DNA of 47,323 nt from a virus: the IMG/VR virus record IMGVR_UViG_3300047509_000053, positions 1 through 47,323 of that record, one strand, 5' to 3'. The notes beneath the pieces were generated by a model. That model was given only the letters and a program-made list of their open reading frames with translations, ran no database searches and was not told the origin of the DNA. The position numbers and the translations under genes are program-made. Positions 3,518-38,740 of the stretch are shown one piece after another. Position 1 is the stretch's first letter. The number at the start of each line of letters is the position of its first letter.

Positions 3518-6500
3518 TTGTCCATCAGCTTCGGGGAAATCCGGGCCAAGGCAAACGCCGCCAACGAGCACGCGCCTCAAGTCACAGCACCAAAGCAGGG
3601 CCCGCCCTCGCCAGGACATGGTGTGGCGGGCCCTTTTTCGTCTCACCTCAAGAGCATCGCGCTCCCGGTGCAGACGTCCTCCCGTGGTCGCCCCGAGGTT
3701 CCCTCGTCGTCGATGCACCACGCACCGTCAGTGCTCGGGCATCTCAGCGACCTCGCGAAGGAGCAGTTCACACGGGACATGGCGTACAGCAACTCCGTCG
3801 TGGCCCATCCGCTCCGGGGCCTCGGCGTTCCCACGTCCATCCATGAGTTCCTGCACGGCAACAAGCACGGGCAGACGATTGAGCACATCAAGGTCAACCA
3901 CGGGCAAGTCCATCTGACCGGCACGAAGAAGCAGCAGGCCGAAGAGGCGTTGATGCTCACGCCGGGGAAGGGCTTCCTTGGCTCGGCTCAGGAGGTCATG
4001 GGCATCGGGCCTGGTGTTGGCTTGCTTGCGGTGCAGGGCGCGCATCATCCTCTCGGCACGGCGGAGTCGGTTGGTCGGAGCATCGGCAGTTCGATGGTTG
4101 GAACGGCAACCCACGGGCGCTACGGCACCAAGGGAAACACCCCTCTGGATGACGCCCTGAACATCTGGACTGCCGCAACCCTCGGGGCCGGCGCAGCAGG
4201 ACGTGTGGGAGCCATCGCTTCCGCCGACAGCGCCAAGGCCGCTATGAAGGCTGCTGTCTTCCGCCCCCACCAACCGCCTCGGGTTCTTCATGTGGGCGAG
4301 GGTGAGTTCTCCAAGCCTGTCATCGCGGCGGCTTCGCGCAACCCTGCGGCGGCTCTTGTGCAGCGCCACATCTACGACCGCCTGACGCAGCACTCTCTCC
4401 GCACGGGGCAGACCGACCTGGGCTCTGTCATCCTCCGTCGCTTCGGCTCGCCCGAGACCCGGATGGCACGCCTCGCCCGCAACCACCTCCGCGTTGAGAA
4501 CGAACTAGGGGCAGCACCGGGGCATGAGTTGGAGCGGTACGGGACGAGCGTCACGAAGCGCGCCGCCAAGGGCAGGCTCGGTGGCCTGACGATGGCGCAG
4601 CAGCACGCGGCGTTCATCTCCTCGCTGGGGCACACACCGGAGACGTTCGCTCGAGCGTCCGAGAACGCCATCGCTCACGCTGACCACCTCGCACAGCTTG
4701 AAGGTGTTCCTGCCGACGTCATCCGCAAGAACCACGAAGACCTGCTCGCGAAGACGAAGCTGTCGGCTCAATACTTCGACCAGCACGGGCACCTCAGCCA
4801 CCCGAAGGTGAAGCAGGCAGCGGAAGCAATGCAGCGCGCCATTTCCGCCCGTGAAGACACGCGGGGGATGACAGCCGACGAGATTCACCACGCTCTCGGT
4901 TCGCGCTGGTATGCAGTTCATCACCTCGCAGAGAACCCGACCGCCGAGTCACTCCACCAGCAGCTTGCGGACGAGGCGAAGGTTGAGGCAATCCATGAGC
5001 AGTTCCGCGCCAAGGGCGAGGAGCTTCAGAAGCATGGGGCCTTCTACCTCCCCCAGTCGTCGGAGACCAAGGCTCTCACCAAGATGCGGCAGGGCGTCAC
5101 TCGCCGCCCCGGCCCGTACGGGTTCTCCGCGCCGAAGGGCGAGAAGACCTACGCCCAGATGGGGCACCTGTTCAACACGGGTGACTTCAGGACTCAGGCT
5201 GTCCCGCTGGCACAACACGCCTTCGGCAAGGCGAAGATGCTCCAGTCGCAGCAGCGTCTACACGAAATGCTCTTGGCGCTGTCGAAGAAGACACCCGAAG
5301 AGGTGGGTCACGCCCACCCGATTCCGATTCGTGTCAAGGGCGCACCGACAGCAGAGCTGAAGAAGTTCATCAACGAGCTGTACCAGGGCGACCACGCGAA
5401 GGCGGAAGGCTCCGGGGCCGAGGCGCTGTGGAAGCACCTGATGCCCGGGCATGTCCCCGAGGGTGAGGATGTTCGCTACCTACACCCGGACGTGGCGGGG
5501 GTCTTCAAGCCGCACCACGCCTCCGAGCTCGCCCGCAACATCGGACGCTTCAACCAACTCATCCGCGCGCAGCGGTTCCTGAACCCGAAGTACGGCATCT
5601 GGAACGCGCAGAACGCAATGGTCGGGCTGCCCCAGCAGGGCGCGTTGATGCCCGCCAACGCTCTGCGCTACCTCCGCACGGTCAGGAAGCTCGACCCGGA
5701 GACCTACTCCAAGATTGAGTCGACGGTCGGGGCCGGGATGTCGAAGTCCCTCACCGCACCGGGCGACCAGAAGGCCGTTCAGCACCTCGCCGGCTTCTGG
5801 CACCACGTCAACGACCACGCCTACCGAATGATGTCCTTCACCCATGAGGCGCGGGCGATGGGCTATCACTCTGCGGATGACCTGAAGCGCCTGATGAACT
5901 CGAAAGACCCGAAGGTTGTCGCTGACCGTCATCAGGTCATTCAGTCCGCGAACCGTGAGGCGATTGACTACGGGGCCATGACCGCCACGGAGCGTGAGTC
6001 GGTTCGCCGCTACGCCGCCTACTGGCCGTGGACACGCGGTGCGACAGCGTGGACTCTTAGGCTTGCGAAGGAGCATCCGCTCTGGGCACAGGTCAACCTC
6101 GAGGCCGGACGCAGAGGAAAGAAGTACGTCGACGAGTTCTACGCCAAGCACGGCGGGATGGTTCCCCCCAACCAGGAGGGTGCGTACCCGGCGAAGTCAG
6201 GGCCCATCGACATGGAGGCGTTCAACACGCCCTCGACCCTGGCGCAGGACGCGGAGGCAGTCTCGGGGATGTTCAACTCCGGGGCGTCCAAGTACCTGAC
6301 CGGGACGGCACTGGGTCAGGCAGCACCCGCTGTGAAGGTCGGGCAGGAACTCCTCACCGGCCTGAACAAGTACGGCTCCGCCCCGAAGTCCGGCTCGGCT
6401 TTCGGTCAGACGCTCCACGACCTCGCCGCTGGCATCGAACCTCTCCAGCTTGGCAAGGCAGCCCTCGGGAAGGGCAGGCCGGGGAGTGGCATCGCCCCGG

Positions 6501-7057
6501 GTGGGTTGATGCATGAGGCGGAGCGTTGGGCTGGCTACCCGCAGGAGCGCGGTGTCAACTACGACGACCTCGCCCAGTACGGTGCTTCAATCGAGAAGAG
6601 TTCTCTTCGCGGGCCGGCGCAGGCCCAGTACGCGGCGAAGCAGCAGCTTGTCCAGCTCGACCAACTCGCCAAGAAGGTCAAGCTCGACCCGGGAGAGCGT
6701 CAGACCTACGTCCGCTACTGGAAGGCGCAGGCGGTTCTCAACGTGACGCTGACGACCGCGGCCAAGAAGGCAGGCATCGTCTCAGACGACTACCGCAAGG
6801 CTGAGAAGAGCCTCTCCTTCCAAGACCCCGTCGCTTACCTGATGGCCTACGCCACCGCAGCATCGAAGCTCGGCGGAAGCCCCGGTTATGTGAAGGAGGC
6901 GAGGGACTACGCCACCCAGATTATGAACACGCCCGGTCACACCAAGCAGCAGAAGGGCGATGTTCTCTACAAGGTGGCGCAGAAGCTCTGGGACGGGGTC
7001 AACCCGTCGACCATCTCAAGCTCGTACTACAAGCGCCTCGCGCAGGCTGGGCTCTAA
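3518..7057 (+). CDS. Very large internal virion/ejection protein (1179 aa)
   Basis: The longest gene of the phage, starting at a TTG two bases after the previous stop. Largely helical and Ala/His/Lys-rich, with a hydrophobic Gly/Ala-rich stretch around residues 155-240 that could be membrane-active. The C-terminal part around residues 960-1070 resembles a helical scaffold. No lysozyme or protease motif was seen. Its size and place immediately upstream of a transglycosylase/peptidase gene resemble the large ejection proteins of T7-like and P22-like phages. Its stop overlaps the stop of the convergent short gene on the minus strand (shared CTAA at 7054-7057). No specific family was recognised. 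Confidence 0.6.
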   Translation: MSISFGEIRAKANAANEHAPQVTAPKQGPPSPGHGVAGPFSSHLKSIALPVQTSSRGRPEVPSSSMHHAPSVLGHLSDLAKEQFTRDMAYSNSVVAHPLRGLGVPTSIHEFLHGNKHGQTIEHIKVNHGQVHLTGTKKQQAEEALMLTPGKGFLGSAQEVMGIGPGVGLLAVQGAHHPLGTAESVGRSIGSSMVGTATHGRYGTKGNTPLDDALNIWTAATLGAGAAGRVGAIASADSAKAAMKAAVFRPHQPPRVLHVGEGEFSKPVIAAASRNPAAALVQRHIYDRLTQHSLRTGQTDLGSVILRRFGSPETRMARLARNHLRVENELGAAPGHELERYGTSVTKRAAKGRLGGLTMAQQHAAFISSLGHTPETFARASENAIAHADHLAQLEGVPADVIRKNHEDLLAKTKLSAQYFDQHGHLSHPKVKQAAEAMQRAISAREDTRGMTADEIHHALGSRWYAVHHLAENPTAESLHQQLADEAKVEAIHEQFRAKGEELQKHGAFYLPQSSETKALTKMRQGVTRRPGPYGFSAPKGEKTYAQMGHLFNTGDFRTQAVPLAQHAFGKAKMLQSQQRLHEMLLALSKKTPEEVGHAHPIPIRVKGAPTAELKKFINELYQGDHAKAEGSGAEALWKHLMPGHVPEGEDVRYLHPDVAGVFKPHHASELARNIGRFNQLIRAQRFLNPKYGIWNAQNAMVGLPQQGALMPANALRYLRTVRKLDPETYSKIESTVGAGMSKSLTAPGDQKAVQHLAGFWHHVNDHAYRMMSFTHEARAMGYHSADDLKRLMNSKDPKVVADRHQVIQSANREAIDYGAMTATERESVRRYAAYWPWTRGATAWTLRLAKEHPLWAQVNLEAGRRGKKYVDEFYAKHGGMVPPNQEGAYPAKSGPIDMEAFNTPSTLAQDAEAVSGMFNSGASKYLTGTALGQAAPAVKVGQELLTGLNKYGSAPKSGSAFGQTLHDLAAGIEPLQLGKAALGKGRPGSGIAPGGLMHEAERWAGYPQERGVNYDDLAQYGASIEKSSLRGPAQAQYAAKQQLVQLDQLAKKVKLDPGERQTYVRYWKAQAVLNVTLTTAAKKAGIVSDDYRKAEKSLSFQDPVAYLMAYATAASKLGGSPGYVKEARDYATQIMNTPGHTKQQKGDVLYKVAQKLWDGVNPSTISSSYYKRLAQAGL

Positions 7058-13360: not shown

Positions 13361-13530
13361 GGCCTCGAAATCCTCCAGCACATACTCTTCCCATGCTTGG
13401 GGACATAACAGCGAACCGCGTACTTGCCAGCGATAGTGGTGAACCATGCCGGGGTGTCCCACGACACGGTTGCCTTGTGGTGAGCTCTGACGGCAGCAGG
13501 CGGGGGGTCTGGTTGCGGTGTGTGAATCAT
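13357..13530 (-). CDS. Hypothetical protein, 57 aa, directly after the integrase gene
   Basis: ATG at 13530 overlaps the integrase stop (ATGA). Product begins with a Pro-rich segment, then contains Trp-Asp-Thr-Pro-Ala-Trp-Phe-Thr-Thr and a Cys-Tyr-Val-Pro segment. No family recognised. An excisionase would be plausible in this position, but there is no visible helix-turn-helix, so I do not call it one. Confidence 0.5.
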   Translation of the reverse strand: MIHTPQPDPPPAAVRAHHKATVSWDTPAWFTTIAGKYAVRCYVPKHGKSMCWRISRP

Positions 13531-14564
13531 TTAGGGCCTCCGTACATCTCGTCCAAGGCTTCAGCCTGGACTGGGAAAAGAACGCCGGCCAGGTGCATGT
13601 ATTGCCTTGTCGTATCCATCGACCGATGACCCGCTCGAGCCATCAGAGCCATCGGGTTTGACTGCGCCGTCGCCGCCTCGTTGGTCAGGGACGTGTGGCG
13701 CATGTCGTGGAAGGGCCTGACATGGTCTGTGATGCCAGCCTTCCCAAGGGCCCGGTTGAAAGCGTTCGTGTACCAGACCGCGTTGAACGGATTGGCAAGG
13801 GACGACGGGAAGACGTAGTCAGAAGGCTCCTTGTCCTTGCACCACTCACCAAGCTGGGTTACGAGGGAGTTCGGGAGGGCCATCCACCTCTCCCCAGCGT
13901 CGGTCTTCGACTCCACTACCCGGAGTGCGTTGCGGACGAAGTCGACGTCCTGAACCTTCAGGTGTCTACACTCGCCACGCCTCATCCCCGTCCTGACCAA
14001 CGTGCGGAAGATGAGCTGGGCCATCTTGTCGTCGAAGCACTCGTCTACGTTCCTGATTTCCTCCGGGGTCAGGATTCTCCACTGGCGCTTCTTCACCCGC
14101 GGCCTCGGAGCCTTGGCTGCAACGTTCGCGTGGAGGAACTCCCTTCTGACGCCGTACTCAAGAACCGCGTGGAGGGTGGAGAGGTCGAAGTTCACCGTCT
14201 TCGGGCTGAAGGTCTTAATTGCTTTGGAGGAGAACCGCTCCACGTCCATGCGTCGGATTGACTCAACCCTCTGATTGTCGAAGGCCCGTAGACGCTTCAA
14301 AGACGTCCGGTAGGCAGACCTCGTCCTCGGGGCCCAGGTCTTCGTCTCCGCGGTGTCGTCAAACCACTCGTCGGAGAGCCTGCGGAAAGAAATCCCCGCT
14401 GGCCGGACGTAACCCTTCGTGACCTGGGCGAGGCGGTCGCGCTCAATCTTCTTCGCCTGGGCCACGCTGATATCGCGCCTGTGGCCGAGCGTCTCCCGTA
14501 CCTGCTTGCCGGCCGCATCCCTGTAGCGGATGCTGACGCGGTCGTCGCGGACTTCGACACTCAC
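13527..14564 (-). CDS. int: Phage integrase, tyrosine recombinase
   Basis: 345 residues, GTG at 14564 with GGAG eight bases upstream. An N-terminal arm-binding-like domain (residues 1-50) is followed by a core-binding SAM-like helical domain (about 58-150) and a catalytic domain with Arg195 (Thr-Gly-Met-Arg-Arg-Gly-Glu), Lys220, His286-x-x-Arg289, His313 (Ala-Gly-His-Arg-Ser) and nucleophile Tyr322 (Thr-Thr-Arg-Gln-Tyr-Met). All six catalytic positions are intact. It would integrate the phage at an unidentified attB. The gene has its own copy of the dispersed 5' element and a palindrome upstream, so it can be expressed apart from the helicase genes. Confidence 0.96.
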   Translation of the reverse strand: MSVEVRDDRVSIRYRDAAGKQVRETLGHRRDISVAQAKKIERDRLAQVTKGYVRPAGISFRRLSDEWFDDTAETKTWAPRTRSAYRTSLKRLRAFDNQRVESIRRMDVERFSSKAIKTFSPKTVNFDLSTLHAVLEYGVRREFLHANVAAKAPRPRVKKRQWRILTPEEIRNVDECFDDKMAQLIFRTLVRTGMRRGECRHLKVQDVDFVRNALRVVESKTDAGERWMALPNSLVTQLGEWCKDKEPSDYVFPSSLANPFNAVWYTNAFNRALGKAGITDHVRPFHDMRHTSLTNEAATAQSNPMALMARAGHRSMDTTRQYMHLAGVLFPVQAEALDEMYGGPK

Positions 14565-14661: not shown

Positions 14662-15969
14662 CTAGAACGGCACGGACTCCTGGGCGATATCATCCTCAAC
14701 GAGCTCGTAGTCGTCCGGGTCGGTCTCCGAGAAGCCAATCGTGTTGCTGTCGAACCAGACCTGCTTTGAGTACGTGGAGCCGTAGCGGTTCTTGTCGACG
14801 ATGAACTTCGCCTTGTGCGGAATGAACTGGTTGTCCTCGTCGCGCTCTCGATAGACGAACCAGATATGGGCCGCTTTGGCGTCAATCATTCCCGACTCTC
14901 TCAGTAACCTTGCCGTAGGTATCGGGTATGGGTTCTGAAAATTGCCTGAACGGCTGAGTTGGGCCAGCAACAGAACCGGGATTTCAAACGCCCGCGCCAT
15001 GTTTTTTAGGTCGTGGACGTTCTGCTCCAGGTGCTTCCGGTCGTTCCATTGCATCTCATGGAGGTGGTCGACGATGATGAGGTCAAACTTCTTGCCCCGC
15101 TGAATCCTCCGCAGCTTGGCGGGTGTCATGTCCTCGTCGTCGAGGATGGTCAGCTTCCCCTTCCAGCCCCGCATCATCTCGGTCACCTCATCAACCCGGG
15201 CCCGTTGCTCCACGGTCAGGTCTCCCCGCTGGATGCCCCGATAGCTGACACCGGAGAGGCCGGAAATCCACCGCTCCATCAAGTCCTTCTCCGACATCTC
15301 CAGTGAGGCGATGCACACGTCCTTGCCGTCCTCGAGCGGCGGCACGGCGAACTGCATCGCACACGCTGTCTTCCCGTGGCCCTGGTAGCCCCCGAGGATG
15401 TAGAGTCGTCCGCCAATCATCTCGTCGAGGAAGCTGAACGGCACCTTGATGCCTCTTACTGACTCGCTGGGGTTGGCAAGGTGCTTGTCGAAGTAGTCCA
15501 GCGCCGTCACCATGTCCACGATGGAGTCGTGCTTCTCCTCCACCATGTCAGCCAGCCGGATGCTTGCTTCCTCGTAGGCTGCGACGGCCTCGTTGGCCGG
15601 CATCTCAACCAGCTTGTCGTTCAGCCCCCAGATGGATGACTGAAGCTCTCTCTTCGTCCACGCATCCCTGACCAGCTTGGCGTGATGGGCGATATTGGAG
15701 GTGGAGGGGACGAGGCTCGCCAACTCGGTAACCAGTTCCAGCGGGACGTCGATGCCGTGCTCGCTGATGTACGACCTGACCGTGATGGCATCCAGTGGCC
15801 TTCCCTCCGCGGTCATCAACTCCATCGTCCTGAATAGGTGCTCGTGGGAGAGCTTGTAGAAGTGCTCGGGGGTGAGGGCCTCCATCGCCCGGTCGGCAGC
15901 GGTGTCGCTGATGAGGCAGGCCGCGAGGACGTGGGTCTCCGCGTCCTCATTGAAGATGGGCTCAAGCAT
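14662..15969 (-). CDS. dnaB: Replicative DNA helicase, DnaB type
   Basis: 435 residues, ATG at 15969 overlapping the preceding gene. N-terminal DnaB-like helical domain (about 5-105, starting with the typical Asn-Glu-Asp-Ala-Glu segment), then a RecA-like core: Walker A Gly-Gly-Tyr-Gln-Gly-His-Gly-Lys-Thr at 193-201, Walker B Leu-Ile-Ile-Val-Asp301, and an arginine/sensor region near Gln-Leu-Ser-Arg. The C-terminus is acidic and ends Ser-Val-Pro-Phe. It unwinds DNA at the fork as a hexamer. No phage loader, primase or polymerase was found, so host enzymes must complete the replisome. Confidence 0.95.
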   Translation of the reverse strand: MLEPIFNEDAETHVLAACLISDTAADRAMEALTPEHFYKLSHEHLFRTMELMTAEGRPLDAITVRSYISEHGIDVPLELVTELASLVPSTSNIAHHAKLVRDAWTKRELQSSIWGLNDKLVEMPANEAVAAYEEASIRLADMVEEKHDSIVDMVTALDYFDKHLANPSESVRGIKVPFSFLDEMIGGRLYILGGYQGHGKTACAMQFAVPPLEDGKDVCIASLEMSEKDLMERWISGLSGVSYRGIQRGDLTVEQRARVDEVTEMMRGWKGKLTILDDEDMTPAKLRRIQRGKKFDLIIVDHLHEMQWNDRKHLEQNVHDLKNMARAFEIPVLLLAQLSRSGNFQNPYPIPTARLLRESGMIDAKAAHIWFVYRERDEDNQFIPHKAKFIVDKNRYGSTYSKQVWFDSNTIGFSETDPDDYELVEDDIAQESVPF

Positions 15970-16270
15970 TCTTCGCCGCCCTCTCCCGCTCTAGTTCGGC
16001 CTGGGCAACCTCGTAACCATCCGTCACTGACTGGCGCAGGTACTCGAAGAACTTCTCTCCACCCTTGAAGCCCTTCGACGGTGGGTAGAGCAACTGCTCA
16101 TTCACGTAGAAGAACTCCGTCATGTACGCAACCAGCGCCATCGGCACCGGATGCCAGTAGTCCCCGGTGAAAATCTCGAGCCGCATGTCACCCTCTACTT
16201 TGCGTCCGGGGACAACGCGGATGTAGACACCGGAGATGAGATGGGGGATGCCGTCAGGGGTGAACTTCAT
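15962..16270 (-). CDS. Hypothetical protein, 102 aa, upstream of the helicase
   Basis: The ATG at 16270 is used because it overlaps the previous stop (ATGA) and follows AAGGAGT. The product has a beta-rich first half (Val-Tyr-Ile-Arg-Val-Val-Pro-Gly-Arg) and a helical charged C-terminus (Glu-Leu-Glu-Arg-Glu-Arg). It could be a helicase partner by position alone. No family or motif recognised. Confidence 0.62.
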   Translation of the reverse strand: MKFTPDGIPHLISGVYIRVVPGRKVEGDMRLEIFTGDYWHPVPMALVAYMTEFFYVNEQLLYPPSKGFKGGEKFFEYLRQSVTDGYEVAQAELERERAAKNA

Positions 16271-16710
16271 GCCCACTCCTTCTTCCAGCGGCGCTTCTTG
16301 TTTAGCGGCTGGTCAATGCGCCGTCCGCCACGCGAGGGTCGATTCCAGTCGCCTCCACTTGTTTGGCTGTCTTCAACCCAGCCCGCCGCCTTGAGAGACG
16401 TGCCCTCTTCCTCGTCCAAGATGAATGTCTGAATCCGCGTGAAGCCCATCTCCCGCGCAATGCGAGCCGACGCTCCATAGAGGAATGAGCAAGCGTTTTT
16501 GCTGCCGTCAGTGACGAGTCTCGTCACCTCTGCGGTTGTGTATTGCTCCGTCATCCGCGCAACTGGTCGCCCAACAATCGCAGCTCCGACAAGCACGCCC
16601 TCATGCTCTGCGCCGATTGAAAACCTGTGTCCTCGGACGGGCTTGTGGTGACGATGAAGACGCTCGACTAGGTCGTTGGCCTGAGCCAGCGTCAGGGGAA
16701 CAGTCTTCAT
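16267..16710 (-). CDS. XF1762-like protein (GNAT/acyltransferase-like fold)
   Basis: 147 residues from ATG 16710, which overlaps the previous stop; the longer frame is not needed. The motifs His-Arg-His-His-Lys-Pro near residue 20, Gly-Ala-Ala-Ile-Val-Gly-Arg-Pro-Val-Ala-Arg, Glu-Val-Thr-Arg-Leu-Val-Thr-Asp-Gly, Asn-Ala-Cys-Ser-Phe-Leu-Tyr-Gly-Ala and Gly-Thr-Ser-Leu-Lys-Ala-Ala-Gly-Trp are those of the phage/prophage XF1762 family. That family is thought to have an acetyltransferase-like fold related in outline to Mom-type DNA modification proteins. The substrate is unknown. Confidence 0.82.
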   Translation of the reverse strand: MKTVPLTLAQANDLVERLHRHHKPVRGHRFSIGAEHEGVLVGAAIVGRPVARMTEQYTTAEVTRLVTDGSKNACSFLYGASARIAREMGFTRIQTFILDEEEGTSLKAAGWVEDSQTSGGDWNRPSRGGRRIDQPLNKKRRWKKEWA

Positions 16711-17111
16711 GCCGACTTCGCCTCGTTGAAGAGGCGAGCGCGGCGCACGAACTCCAAGCAGTTCTCTAGCCACTCCTCGCTGTCACGACCGAACTCAATC
16801 TGGCCGAGAATCTTGTTGCATTGCCAGTGAGCCAACCCGCGCGGGTAGTAGCCGCCGAAGTGAGCGTGCTCGCGGTCGAGACGAAAGCCCTCAGATGCCC
16901 TCGGGCGTTTACAGATGCCGCAGGTGTTCTCGTCAAGACCGTGGACAACTTGGTTGATTTCGACGTGCTCCTCGTACGACAAGAGACCAGCCTCATGAGC
17001 TGGCTTCTTCGTGACAGGCTTCGTCAACGCCTCGCAGTTGAGACACTTCTTCGATGCGGTACGTTCATTCCGGTACTTGCATTTTCTGCAAGTCCAGTAC
17101 CTACGCGCCAT
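16707..17111 (-). CDS. Recombination endonuclease VII-like HNH nuclease with N-terminal zinc ribbon
   Basis: 134 residues from ATG 17111, which lies 11 bp inside the previous gene. Residues 7-30 hold two Cys-x2-Cys pairs (zinc ribbon). The C-terminal part has the endonuclease VII signature: Cys-Gly-Ile-Cys, then a Asp-Arg-Glu-His-Ala-His segment (the usual Asp-His-x-His core changed to Glu-His-Ala-His), then Arg-Gly-Leu-Ala-His-Trp-Gln-Cys-Asn. The last Cys-x2-Cys is degenerate (Trp-Gln-Cys). Such enzymes resolve branched DNA before packaging. It may also be a mobile endonuclease. Confidence 0.8.
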   Translation of the reverse strand: MARRYWTCRKCKYRNERTASKKCLNCEALTKPVTKKPAHEAGLLSYEEHVEINQVVHGLDENTCGICKRPRASEGFRLDREHAHFGGYYPRGLAHWQCNKILGQIEFGRDSEEWLENCLEFVRRARLFNEAKSA

Positions 17112-17328
17112 CAAGTTCCTCAATGGCCGCAATGGCATATGACGCGGCCTCAACCAGAACCTTGCGAAGCTGCTGGTTGTCTTCCAGGCCGTCAAGTGCG
17201 AGACAGGCCGCGGTGTCAAGCTCATGCAGCCAGACGTCATGGCCGTGGATGCCGTACCACTCTTCCTTCTCCTGCTTCAGCCGTTCCGCCTCAACCTGGA
17301 CGTAGATGATGTCGCGCGGGTGACTCAC
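17101..17328 (-). CDS. Hypothetical helical protein, 75 aa
   Basis: GTG at 17328 overlaps the previous stop (GTGA). Entirely helical by composition, with Trp-Tyr-Gly-Ile-His-Gly-His-Asp-Val-Trp-Leu-His in the middle and an Ala/Leu-rich C-terminal helix. No family recognised; the reading frame follows the operon pattern of tight overlaps, which supports that it is real. Confidence 0.65.
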   Translation of the reverse strand: MSHPRDIIYVQVEAERLKQEKEEWYGIHGHDVWLHELDTAACLALDGLEDNQQLRKVLVEAASYAIAAIEELDGA

Positions 17329-18279: not shown

Positions 18280-18475
18280 CACCCTCGATGAACGGAGGTG
18301 TCGGCTCCGGGGCGGGAACACTCATGACAGCCGCGCCTTCGTCAGATGGAACTTGTTGCAGTCCGGGCAGCGATACGCCCGCTGACTGCGGTGCGGGGTG
18401 TGACTGACCGCTCTGTACGCTTTCCCGCGTGAGCAGTACGCGACCTTCCCGGTTGCGTGGCAACGTGTCACTCAT
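18266..18475 (-). CDS. Hypothetical protein, 69 aa, Pro/Ser-rich
   Basis: ATG at 18475 overlaps the previous stop (ATGA). Low-complexity, Pro/Ser/Gln-rich, with an acidic end (Glu-Gly-Asp-Asp-Ile-Glu). It looks disordered. The reading frame is maintained in the overlapping operon, but evidence for function is absent. Confidence 0.5.
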   Translation of the reverse strand: MSDTLPRNREGRVLLTRESVQSGQSHPAPQSAGVSLPGLQQVPSDEGAAVMSVPAPEPTPPFIEGDDIE

Positions 18476-18825
18476 GCCACCGCCTCAAAGTCTTCGCGGG
18501 CGAGGATTGCTTCCTCGTACTCCAAGATTGCGAGCCGGTACTCGTTCAGCGGCGGCTCCAACCACAGGTGCGTGCTGTCGAACGCAACCAAGAGACGGTC
18601 AATCTTCATCTCCGACACCGTCCTGAACGTCGGGTTGAACAATCGCCGTGCGTTGGCCTCGTCGACGTTCATCCGCAGGCTGACGCTGTGAGGCGTTGCG
18701 TTGGGGTCGATGAGACGAATGACCTCCCGCGCAACGTGGGACGGGATGGCGAGGTAGCTGCCCTGACGGGAAATCAGGTGACTGAGATGGTCGGGAATCC
18801 TCGGGGGGCGGTGGTGGGCTCTCAT
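18472..18825 (-). CDS. Hypothetical protein, 117 aa
   Basis: ATG at 18825 overlaps the end of the exonuclease gene. Basic His/Arg-rich N-terminus, then a helical middle with Leu-Ile-Ser-Arg-Gln-Gly-Ser and Val-Asp-Glu-Ala-Asn-Ala-Arg-Arg-Leu-Phe-Asn-Pro. A helix-turn-helix around residues 45-85 is possible but not convincing. No family recognised. Confidence 0.6.
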   Translation of the reverse strand: MRAHHRPPRIPDHLSHLISRQGSYLAIPSHVAREVIRLIDPNATPHSVSLRMNVDEANARRLFNPTFRTVSEMKIDRLLVAFDSTHLWLEPPLNEYRLAILEYEEAILAREDFEAVA

Positions 18826-19478
18826 TTCAACGCCTCCTTCACCGAAGCGAGCGCGTTGTACGTCCTCAGCACCGCAAGGAAATCGTCGTAGGTGGCCTTC
18901 GCGCGTTTACACTGGTACAGCCCGTCAGCCGTCACATGGATGACTGCCCGAGCGTCAGTGGGCTGGTAGCCGCACTCAATCCCGGCCCCCTCGTACGCCT
19001 CCAACTGCATCAGGTGCGTGCTGTAGATGCTCTTGGAGCTCTTCAGGTCGACCAGCAACGTCGTACCGCTGGGGATGGTGGTGAACTTCGGCCCGGACGC
19101 AAGGGGCTTGCCGGCCTGTGTGGTTGCTTTCGCAACCAACCGGACGTCACGGTTGACCTTGCCTCTCAGGTCGTAGCGACCAGCGAAGCCATGCTCCTTG
19201 GAGCCAACTGTGACCTCAACGCCTTCTGTCTCCCAGGCGTCACCCATTGCTTTGCAGAACTCAAGGAGTCCCTGTACGTAGCCCTGCTCCTCGACCGGAT
19301 GGTTGGCCGGGTTGGGAAGCTGTCCGGTGATGGCCCACGCCTCGAAGGCGTTGTGTGCACCGACTCCGCGGACGCCAGCCTTGTCGCGCTGGTGGTTGAT
19401 GGAGATTTTCTCGCTGACAAGAAGGGCAACGATGCTCTCCTTCGTCGCGCGAGTCCCATCCGGGTGCGCTAGATGCAT
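18822..19478 (-). CDS. RecB/Cas4-like exonuclease, C-terminal fragment with the catalytic core
   Basis: 218 residues from ATG 19478, which follows GGGAGGA. Residues 25-45 (Ile-Asn-His-Gln-Arg-Asp-Lys-Ala-Gly-x-Arg-Gly) and His42 match the first half of the PD-(D/E)XK phage exonuclease family; the catalytic residues follow: Asp103 (Gly-Arg-Tyr-Asp-Leu), Asp144-x-Lys146 (Val-Asp-Leu-Lys-Ser) and Gln158-x-x-x-Tyr162. The N-terminal strand/helix part of the usual protein is missing here and is encoded by 19861-20127, on the other side of an HNH gene. All active-site residues are intact, so the two pieces could reassemble. Confidence 0.85.
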   Translation of the reverse strand: MHLAHPDGTRATKESIVALLVSEKISINHQRDKAGVRGVGAHNAFEAWAITGQLPNPANHPVEEQGYVQGLLEFCKAMGDAWETEGVEVTVGSKEHGFAGRYDLRGKVNRDVRLVAKATTQAGKPLASGPKFTTIPSGTTLLVDLKSSKSIYSTHLMQLEAYEGAGIECGYQPTDARAVIHVTADGLYQCKRAKATYDDFLAVLRTYNALASVKEALK

Positions 19479-19861
19479 CGTTCCTCCCAGTGGAGAATCG
19501 CGTGGCAGTTGGCACAGAGCACGTCGCACTTAGCCAACTCGGCACGAACGGCCTTCCAGCCGGCGCGAAGGAACGCGCTAGGCGTGCGCGTCTTTAGCGC
19601 GGGGTTGCGGTGATGAAAAACGAGCGCTGCCTCATGCGTGCGATAGCCACAACGCAGACAACCCTTGAGCGTCTTGTAGCGCCGAAGAACTGCCGCACGC
19701 TGCTGGTACTCGTCACGCTTGCGCTGTAGCTCGCGCTCCCGATTCGCCCAGTAGTACGCTTTTGAGGCAGCCTTGACTGCTTCCGGGTTTTTGCGCGCCC
19801 ACTTACGAGAACTGGCGCGATGCTCCTCAGAGTGCTCGGCCCTCCATTGAGCCGTAGTCAT
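19469..19861 (-). CDS. HNH homing-type endonuclease splitting the exonuclease gene
   Basis: 130 residues. ATG at 19861 overlaps the stop of the N-terminal exonuclease fragment (TGATGA); its TAG lies 10 bp inside the C-terminal fragment. The N-terminal half is a basic helical DNA-binding arm (Arg/Lys/Glu-rich, Ser-Arg-Lys-Trp-Ala-Arg-Lys-Asn-Pro-Glu-Ala-Val-Lys). The C-terminal half has Cys-Leu-Arg-Cys-Gly-Tyr, Val-Phe-His-His-Arg-Asn-Pro and Cys-Ala-Asn-Cys-His, the HNH/zinc signature. It fills the gap between exonuclease halves almost exactly, leaving no space for an intron. A free-standing homing endonuclease is the best reading. Confidence 0.88.
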   Translation of the reverse strand: MTTAQWRAEHSEEHRASSRKWARKNPEAVKAASKAYYWANRERELQRKRDEYQQRAAVLRRYKTLKGCLRCGYRTHEAALVFHHRNPALKTRTPSAFLRAGWKAVRAELAKCDVLCANCHAILHWEERCI

Positions 19862-20127
19862 CAGTCGCTCCCCAAGACCAGCAGGCCGCGACTGACGAGC
19901 TCGAGAATCCCCTCAACGGCAACTCCCTGGGCCCACCACGGCAGCCCGCTTTTGTCGAGCACCCCGAGAACAGTCGTGACGCTCGGCACCTCAACGCCGT
20001 CGATGTGATAGGCCCTCTTCGGCGCGGTGTAAAAGTCGATGGTGTACCCGGCTGGAACCGTTGAGCTGGTTAGCGGGGTGGGCTTCTCCTCCGCTTGTGC
20101 GGTAGGCACTTCCTCCGTAGTCGCCAT
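19861..20127 (-). CDS. RecB/Cas4-like exonuclease, N-terminal fragment
   Basis: 88 residues, ATG at 20127. After a disordered, Thr/Pro/Glu-rich leader of about 28 residues, the sequence reads Ala-Tyr-His-Ile-Asp-Gly-Val-Glu-Val-Pro-Ser-Val-Thr-Thr-Val-Leu-Gly-Val-Leu-Asp-Lys and then Leu-Pro-Trp-Trp-Ala-Gln-Gly-Val-Ala. The Pro-Ser-Val-Thr-Thr-x-Leu block and the following Trp-Ala are the recognised start of phage Cas4-like exonucleases. The frame ends shortly after Glu-Leu-Val-Ser-Arg-Gly and the family continues in the gene at 18822-19478. So this is a broken or split gene, not a complete small protein. Confidence 0.82.
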   Translation of the reverse strand: MATTEEVPTAQAEEKPTPLTSSTVPAGYTIDFYTAPKRAYHIDGVEVPSVTTVLGVLDKSGLPWWAQGVAVEGILELVSRGLLVLGSD

Positions 20128-20129
20128 GA

Positions 20130-20723
20130 CTAGAAGGGGATGTCGTCGGAGGCGAGGCCGGGAGCAGCCGTGGCAGCGACCGCGCCACTGTTGTCATCCA
20201 CGTACGTGTTGGGAACCTCACCGTTCAGCCACGCCCGGTAGTAGTCGGCCAGTGACGTGACGCTTCCCCAGTCATTCAGCTCAAGCCCCACGATGCTGTC
20301 TACGGCGGCCTTGATTGCAACGGCACGCTGGATGGCTTCCTCGCGGTCGGTCTGAGTCGGCTGGGAGACGATGATTGAGGTAGATGCCCCAGAAGCCACT
20401 GTGCTGCCCTGTGACGCCACGGGGACGTAAGGCGGGGGGGTTGAGTCGAACGCCTGTTCGCCCGCAGCAGAAAGGCTCTTGAGGTAGCGGTTGGTGTAGG
20501 TGGTGTCTACACCCTGACGGTTCGGCTTCACCGTGGTCGACAGTTCGAAGCCAATCGTGGCGTTGTGGCCCTTCAGCGCGGCGGCCTGTACCGCCAACTC
20601 CTTGTCGAATGTGCTGTATTCAACGCCCAGCACGTCCTTGACCAAGAACAACGTTCCAGGGCCCTTCGAGGTGTTGATGTCTTTCGACTCGACAGCCTGG
20701 ATACCGACGATGGTGGATTCCAT
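20130..20723 (-). CDS. Single-stranded-DNA-binding-like protein with SSB-type C-terminal tip
   Basis: 197 residues, ATG at 20723 after AGGAGG, first long gene of the early operon. Residues 1-100 are beta-rich and consistent with an OB-fold; residues about 100-180 are a linker and helix; the last residues are Asp-Asp-Ile-Pro-Phe, the conserved acidic tip by which SSB proteins bind partner enzymes. The next gene is a RecB-like exonuclease, so it likely protects or presents single strands during replication/recombination. The OB-fold is inferred; the tip is seen directly. Confidence 0.75.
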   Translation of the reverse strand: MESTIVGIQAVESKDINTSKGPGTLFLVKDVLGVEYSTFDKELAVQAAALKGHNATIGFELSTTVKPNRQGVDTTYTNRYLKSLSAAGEQAFDSTPPPYVPVASQGSTVASGASTSIIVSQPTQTDREEAIQRAVAIKAAVDSIVGLELNDWGSVTSLADYYRAWLNGEVPNTYVDDNSGAVAATAAPGLASDDIPF

Positions 20724-23267: not shown

Positions 23268-23290
23268 ATGTGTTAGAGCCTTAGAGCTCC

Positions 23291-23316
23291 GACCCTCACC
23301 ATTGCTGGTGAGAGTC
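23291..23316 (-). terminator. Hairpin ending the 23323-23953 cassette
   Basis: Arms GACCCTCACCA (23291-23301) and TGGTGAGAGTC (23306-23316), one mismatch, TTGC loop, seven bases after the stop of the gene ending at 23323. No U-tract follows on the minus strand, so it may be a weak terminator or transcript 3'-end stabiliser. Confidence 0.6.
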
Positions 23317-23322
23317 GCAACG

Positions 23323-24076: not shown

Positions 24077-24595
24077 ATGAGCACAGACAACCTAGACTCA
24101 TTGCCGCTAGGGGTCGACTCAACCCCCTCGCCCGCCCCAGGGTCAACCCCTAGCACTCCTCGTCAATGCTCCTCCCTCACTAGAGCAGGCAAGCCCTGTG
24201 GAGCTAGAGCGGTGCACGGTGAGCAGGTGTGTGCGATGCATAGCTCCAGGGGTGCAGAGATTCGAGCTAAGGCCACTCAGGCATCAGCCGATGCTAGGCG
24301 GGACAAGGTAAAGGACAGGAAAGAAGCCCAAGAGGCTGCAAAACTGAGTCTGACAGAGGCTTTTAGGCTTGCGGCAGGCAAGCGCCAGACGGAGCTCGTC
24401 AACGCAACACTCGACCGCGCCATCCTTGATAAGGACTCAGCGGTACTAAGGCTTGTATGGGAGCGGCTAGAGGGCAAGGTTGCCGACCACCTGGTTACTG
24501 AGGCCGGCGACCCCTTCACCATGACCGAAGCCCAGCTAGCTAAGTGGCTCGATACACCCGTAACAGAGCAGGGTACTGCGTCAGAACCCCAGTGA
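24077..24595 (+). CDS. Zinc-finger protein in small-terminase position
   Basis: 172 residues, ATG preceded by AAGGTG. After a Pro/Ser/Thr-rich leader, residues about 30-56 carry Cys-x8-Cys-x11-Cys-x2-His (Cys-Gly-Ala-Arg ... Cys-Ala-Met-His-Ser), a zinc site common in phage proteins lying next to terminase genes. The rest is helical and charged, with a Gly-Asp-Pro-Phe-Thr-Met-Thr-Glu segment near the C-terminus. It is the first gene of the late direction, so it is the best small terminase candidate. The large subunit is 7 kb downstream, an unusual separation. Could also be a regulator. Confidence 0.5.
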   Translation: MSTDNLDSLPLGVDSTPSPAPGSTPSTPRQCSSLTRAGKPCGARAVHGEQVCAMHSSRGAEIRAKATQASADARRDKVKDRKEAQEAAKLSLTEAFRLAAGKRQTELVNATLDRAILDKDSAVLRLVWERLEGKVADHLVTEAGDPFTMTEAQLAKWLDTPVTEQGTASEPQ

Positions 24596-33726: not shown

Positions 33727-34152
33727 GTGAAAGTCCTTTCGGAGGAGCACAAGCGGAATATCTCCGCGGCCCTCACGGGGCTTCCAAAGACCCCAGAGCA
33801 TCGCCAGAAAATCTCCCTAGCGAGAGCCGGGAAGTCCGGCCCACGCCTGACGGGTCTAGCCAACCCAGCGTGGAGGGGCGGGCGTCGGAGTAAGCGGGGC
33901 TACACCGAAGTTAGGGTGCCCACCGACCATCCGATGGCGATGAAGAGTGGTTACGTTCTAGAGCATCGACTTGTTATGGCTCAATTTATCGGGCGCGCGC
34001 TTGAATCATTCGAGACGGTTCATCACCGCAATGGTGACAGGGCAGACAATCGCATTGAGAACCTCCAACTTCGTATCGGAAATCACGGCACGGGGGTTGC
34101 TCATATGTGCGGTGATTGTGGGTCAATCAATGTCTTGACGGTGGAACTGTGA
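33727..34152 (+). CDS. HNH homing endonuclease with NUMOD3-type motif, between terminase and portal
   Basis: 141 residues, GTG 33727. Residues 1-40 have repeated Ser-Glu-Glu-His-Lys-Arg-Asn-Ile and Thr-Pro-Glu-His-Arg-Gln-Lys-Ile-Ser helices, the NUMOD3 DNA-binding motif of homing endonucleases. The nuclease core has Leu-Glu-His-Arg-Leu-Val-Met and Val-His-His-Arg-Asn-Gly-Asp ... Asp-Asn-Arg-Ile-Glu-Asn-Leu (HNH), then Cys-Gly-Asp-Cys near the end. Base composition is visibly more A/T-rich than the flanks, indicating transfer. A typical free-standing homing gene inserted between two structural genes. Confidence 0.88.
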
Positions 34153-38712: not shown

Positions 38713-38740
38713 GGGCGGGGTGGTTAACGCCACCCCGCCC
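38713..38740 (+). terminator. Strong hairpin after the capsid gene
   Basis: Perfect 11-bp stem GGGCGGGGTGG (38713-38723) and CCACCCCGCCC (38730-38740), loop TTAACG. No U-tract follows, so it is likely a partial terminator or an mRNA 3'-end stabiliser that sets capsid level above downstream genes. Confidence 0.75.

Follow-up and report, generated by a model that had tools for sequence, protein, structure and literature searches.

The DNA analysed here, hereafter the window, comprises the 47,323 nucleotides of the IMG/VR virus record IMGVR_UViG_3300047509_000053. As a whole it looks like a temperate phage: genes for a tyrosine integrase (13527-14564, minus strand) and a DnaB helicase (14662-15969, minus strand) are present, and SU10-type portal and capsid proteins and a GH25 lysin are also encoded. 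Between the helicase gene and the region described below, two minus-strand genes (16267-16773 and 16707-17240) place a Mom-like DNA modification gene beside an endonuclease VII-like gene whose product bears a RanBP-type zinc finger; a gene similar-looking to one of this pair lies at 6204-6575 of a related viral contig (L008), shortly after an undivided exonuclease gene. The locus considered here, in which an exonuclease gene is divided by an HNH endonuclease gene, contains the following features.

18472-18825, minus strand: downstream ORF, with a 4-bp overlap (ATGA) with the stop of the C half (from the sequence).
18822-19478, minus strand: C half of the exonuclease, 218 aa (phrog_298 and BLASTP to L001).
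19469-19861, minus strand: HNH homing-type endonuclease, 130 aa, a whole free-standing ORF (CxxC...HH...CxxCH; phrog_2255/3106 and L003 match).
19482-19488, minus strand: GGGAGGA, Shine-Dalgarno sequence of the C half, just before the ATG at 19478 (from the sequence).
19858-19898, minus strand: hairpin with an 11-bp stem (one G-U pair) and a 19-nt loop over the HNH start (from folding).
19861-20127, minus strand: N half of the MGME1/RecB-like exonuclease, 88 aa (phrog_298, BLASTP to L001 and mapping on MGME1).
19868-19873, minus strand: GGGGAG, Shine-Dalgarno-like site of the HNH gene, within the N-half coding sequence (from the sequence).
20130-20723, minus strand: upstream gene adjoining the N half, with a weak match to phrog_993 (unknown function).

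The ORFs, their coordinates and strands and the overlaps reported in the first-pass annotation were all confirmed by the sequence: the N half and the HNH gene share 1 bp (TGATG), and the HNH gene and the C half share 10 bp. The starts of the HNH gene and the C half lie 266 and 649 nt away from that of the N half, which places the three ORFs in three different frames. The C ORF also has a longer in-frame start, a GTG at 19529 that would give 235 aa; the ATG at 19478 is preferred because it has a Shine-Dalgarno sequence, the GGGAGGA that had been assigned to this half and that was found at 19488-19482. The downstream ORF is probably translationally coupled to the C half. Upstream, a gene that by eye is similar to that at 20130-20723 precedes the undivided exonuclease gene in two related contigs, L042 and L008. 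In a third, L001, an extra 274-aa ORF (4826-5650) lies between the upstream gene and the exonuclease gene.

Both halves match the same exonuclease family in consecutive parts. Against the profile of phrog_298 ('exonuclease'), the N half covers positions 52-91 (E 5.5e-5) and the C half positions 99-251 (E 1.4e-15). A scan of viral contigs with the C half found the nearest undivided relative in L001, where a single 338-aa ORF holds both parts; in BLASTP, residues 22-105 of that protein align with the N half (42% identity, E 8e-22) and residues 119-338 with the C half (64% identity, E 1e-100). At the level of sequence, this match of both halves to an undivided exonuclease is far beyond chance, and it bears out the earlier reading of the 88-residue protein as the N-terminal block of the enzyme. 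Taken together, the halves span the undivided homologues from L001, L008, L016 and L042 end to end; actinophage Cas4-type exonucleases are more distant undivided relatives. One uninterrupted ORF is present at each related locus examined (20 loci, some of them from the L001 or L008 contigs or near-duplicates, plus L042), one of which runs off the contig end, and none of the undivided genes at these viral loci carries an HNH gene. A second split copy was sought in scans of viral and genome contigs, which returned only undivided genes, and a DNA-level search of the 7.5-kb region against GenBank phages gave no match. The record is a virus contig without reads, and an assembly chimera could be imagined. 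This explanation is nevertheless vanishingly improbable, as it would need two exact junctions joined to complementary halves of one gene, and the G+C content is alike (0.61-0.63) in all three ORFs.

A large missing piece between the fragments, which would have marked a dead gene, was looked for and not found. The window is about 4-12 residues shorter at the split than its near relatives, varying by pair, and the split site falls in a segment that differs in length among relatives and is absent altogether from many distant family members. Such a poorly conserved insertion point is unusual for a homing site, and this counts against the explanation preferred below.

The host enzyme is, as judged by profile and fold comparisons, MGME1-like and of the RecB/Cas4 type (a PD-(D/E)XK exonuclease), with a predicted nuclease function. 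The exonuclease-family profile matches human MGME1 (E 9e-11), and the best PDB fold for a model of the undivided L001 protein is MGME1 (E 5e-7, TM by target 0.64). The model used was built from 18 sequences (pLDDT 89.6, pTM 0.82) in place of an earlier, poor five-sequence model (pLDDT 62.6). By profile alignment and published residue numbers (PMC6237815), S49, T51 and W65 of the N half map on MGME1 Ser132, Thr134 and Trp152, and H42, D103, D144, K146, Q158 and Y162 of the C half map on His180, Asp238, Asp251, Lys253, Gln271 and Tyr275. In MGME1, Ser132 and Thr134 contact DNA phosphates, Trp152 belongs to a pin, and helices alpha2 (143-160) and alpha3 (162-187) make an arch over single-stranded DNA (PMC6237815). 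In the L001 model the cut lies in a loop between strands 100-102 and 108-112, flanked by helix 78-96 (MGME1 alpha2) and helix 135-159 (alpha3), and on this model it falls at the apex of the helical arch in which single-stranded DNA is held. The predicted division of labour is a phosphate clamp and arch arm alpha2 with the pin Trp in the N half, and arm alpha3 with the metal-ligand His and the active site in the C half. The short strands flanking the break could pair across it.

The motif residues of this enzyme type have been kept. All five catalytic residues previously listed for the C half are present, namely motif II Asp (D103), motif III (D144/K146) and motif IV (Q158/Y162, QhxxY), to which we add the His of motif Ia (H42); the PSVT clamp (S49, T51) and the arch-helix Trp (W65) are present in the N half. 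At 11 positions that are at least 90% invariant in the 18-sequence alignment (T68, G146, H150, E208, G220, D223, D264, K266, Q278, L279 and Y282 in L001 numbering) the window retains 11/11, one in the N half (the Thr of PSVT) and ten in the C half. The metal-binding and catalytic side chains are all located in the C half, which might suggest that it is a working enzyme by itself and the N half a by-product. We consider this improbable, since the N block is found in all family members examined, its Ser and Thr bind DNA phosphates in MGME1, and Trp152 matters on duplex-containing DNA (PMC6237815). As MGME1 W152A still cuts single-stranded DNA, partial activity is conceivable.

A dead exonuclease, disrupted by a recent HNH insertion and represented by remnants on the eve of decay, is a more serious alternative. 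The split is known from a single example, and several N-half residues have changed: 18/25 residues invariant in four undivided relatives are kept, and the KPALPWWGMxxG of near relatives reads KSGLPWWAQGVA, the PALPWWGMxxG block being replaced by SGLPWWAQGVA, a change that may have come about through adaptation to the split, recombination or drift. On the other hand, neither half has its reading frame interrupted, each has its own start, and the near-invariant residues are intact. Between the window and L001, the C half has a dN/dS of about 0.2 (dN 0.29 vs dS 1.34), with dN well below dS, and the N half one of about 0.5, similar to the N-half values of undivided pairs (L008-L042, 0.5; L001-L042, 0.7); these ratios are rough, with synonymous sites near saturation and with long branches that may for the most part be older than the insertion. 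Relative-rate tests against L001 were inconsistent (17:7 with L008 as outgroup, 8:5 with L016), and N-half decay by this test was dropped as evidence because the outgroups disagree. Sequence comparison therefore gives no clear sign of decay in the exonuclease halves, though a recent insertion would show none, and the split could be recent. On balance we regard a dead gene as unlikely, but as deserving serious attention.

The inserted gene has the features of a homing-type endonuclease. It matches phrog_2255/3106 (E ~1e-23) and retains an intact HNH nuclease motif (CxxC...HH...CxxCH). The ORF spans MTTAQWRAEHSE to NCHAILHWEERCI, and its residues 1-128 of 130 match a free-standing HNH ORF in contig L003, readable from MPTEQWRRDNPE to NCHAILHWKERQ (114 aa), which likewise ends NCHAILHW(K)ER, the ILHW(K)ER ending being common to both. 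Because of this near end-to-end homology to a free-standing gene, the inserted DNA is little more than the HNH ORF. More distant HNH relatives in phages are separate genes amid diverse, unrelated neighbours. The GGGAGGA in front of the C half is spelled by the C-terminal Trp-Glu-Glu codons of the HNH gene, so that the C half has HNH sequence as its ribosome-binding site. Self-splicing introns and inteins often house HNH endonucleases, and excision of the right length at the RNA level could restore the frame, so an unusual element of this kind has to be weighed. It is very improbable here, as had been argued earlier from the layout: an Rfam search of 2.5 kb gave no match at E<=10, there is hardly any sequence beyond the HNH ORF, three ORFs in three frames argue against an intein, and with a start for each half splicing is not needed. 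We also considered, and dropped, a programmed frameshift or a bypass across the insert, as about 385 nt with a complete gene lie between the halves and each half has its own start. Elsewhere in the window, a second homing-type endonuclease gene (HNH_3 + NUMOD3; 33727-34152, plus strand) is flanked by a terminase-side ORF and the portal gene, and the listed start of the latter gives an overlap of 37 bp with it.

The HNH start is covered by a hairpin (19898-19858), with its Shine-Dalgarno-like GGGGAG in the loop and its start codon in the stem. Stems of 11 bp or more with a loop of this kind occur at four distinct places on the window minus strand, this one included, and five composition-preserving shuffles gave 0-7 such stems, so that the length is not rare in itself; the hairpin is noteworthy for its position, which was spotted after the fact. 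Around the two internal starts, the RNA folding z-scores (-1.43 and -0.37) do not reach significance. Hairpins that cover the start region have been described for I-TevI, I-TevII, I-TevIII, segB and Aeh1 mobE, and coupling of T4 mobE to nrdA via overlapping stop and start codons has been discussed (PMC2988022). The three other long hairpins in the window are located at 38713-38740, directly behind the capsid gene and possibly a terminator, at 24106-24154 and at 23290-23317.

Insertion of the HNH gene into the exonuclease gene is near certain, and reassembly of the two halves is what we infer from their anatomy. As a single account, an HNH insertion that made a genes-in-pieces exonuclease whose halves reassemble is the explanation we think probable. 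A free-standing HNH gene would have entered a single-chain MGME1/RecB-type exonuclease gene essentially as a bare ORF, within the codons for the helical-arch apex. The insert would bring its own punctuation, with the HNH start overlapping the new N-half stop (TGATG) and the HNH Trp-Glu-Glu codons providing a Shine-Dalgarno sequence for the new C-half start, while the hairpin would limit HNH synthesis unless the N half is being translated. Produced next to each other from a single mRNA, the two polypeptides would then join non-covalently as a working exonuclease, with phosphate clamp and Trp-pin arm coming from the N half and His arm and active site from the C half. Family and location suggest that the HNH protein may cut uninterrupted copies of the exonuclease gene in co-infecting phages and be copied in. 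As the cut sits at the arch apex, the arch of the reassembled enzyme can perhaps open, and the enzyme might then get onto single-stranded DNA with no need to thread a free end, changing its substrate use; we offer this as a long shot.

If this explanation holds, an arch-type exonuclease joins the few phage enzymes known to be split by homing endonucleases. In addition, the cut between arms whose role is known from MGME1 structures would provide a natural two-chain enzyme in which the need for covalent closure of the DNA-holding arch can be tested. The locus also suggests that a bare endonuclease ORF can supply a stop, a Shine-Dalgarno sequence and a start, leaving a split gene translatable at once.

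By its anatomy the locus fits a known kind, the gene split by a homing endonuclease gene: the gene is undivided in relatives without the endonuclease (L001, L008, L016, L042 and others), both fragments are kept without loss of conserved sequence, and Rfam search and frame analysis revealed no splicing element. The host enzyme and the cut site appear new. The first-pass annotation knew of no such split in this exonuclease family, and a literature search, outside which most subscription papers lay, found no report of a split phage Cas4/MGME1-like exonuclease. The members of PHROG 298 and the actinophage 'Cas4 family exonucleases' examined, which form the sequence family of the host gene, are undivided, whereas the window gene is split. 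Human MGME1 (PDB 5zyt, 5zyu, 8xa9) has the same fold and motifs (PSVT clamp, Trp pin, RecB-type motifs), but it is a single chain with a short arch apex, which in the window enzyme is interrupted.

Aeh1 nrdA, phage 25 gene 43 and probably the T4 topoisomerase gene are split by homing endonucleases and their products work together (PMC2988022). The analogy with nrdA/mobE of Aeromonas phage Aeh1, already drawn in the first-pass annotation, holds and is strengthened by the RNA hairpin over the HNH start: in both, a free-standing HNH gene splits a DNA-metabolism gene into two ORFs and a hairpin covers the HNH ribosome-binding site (PMC2988022). In Aeh1, however, the host gene codes for ribonucleotide reductase and a working enzyme has been shown, whereas the host gene of the window codes for an MGME1-like exonuclease whose halves would reassemble; moreover, the window insert is little more than an ORF, unlike that of Aeh1. 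The split-gene products of T4 mobA/topoisomerase large-subunit gene and phage 25 seg43/DNA polymerase gene 43 are likewise thought or shown to assemble, but the host enzymes differ from that of the window, and in phage 25 gene 43 may already have been split when the endonuclease entered it. Finally, in phage ShiLan an HNH ORF lies out of frame in a methylase gene, likewise without a recognisable intron or intein; in that gene the insert leaves the host frame open (PMC11855218), whereas in the window it is cut into two ORFs.
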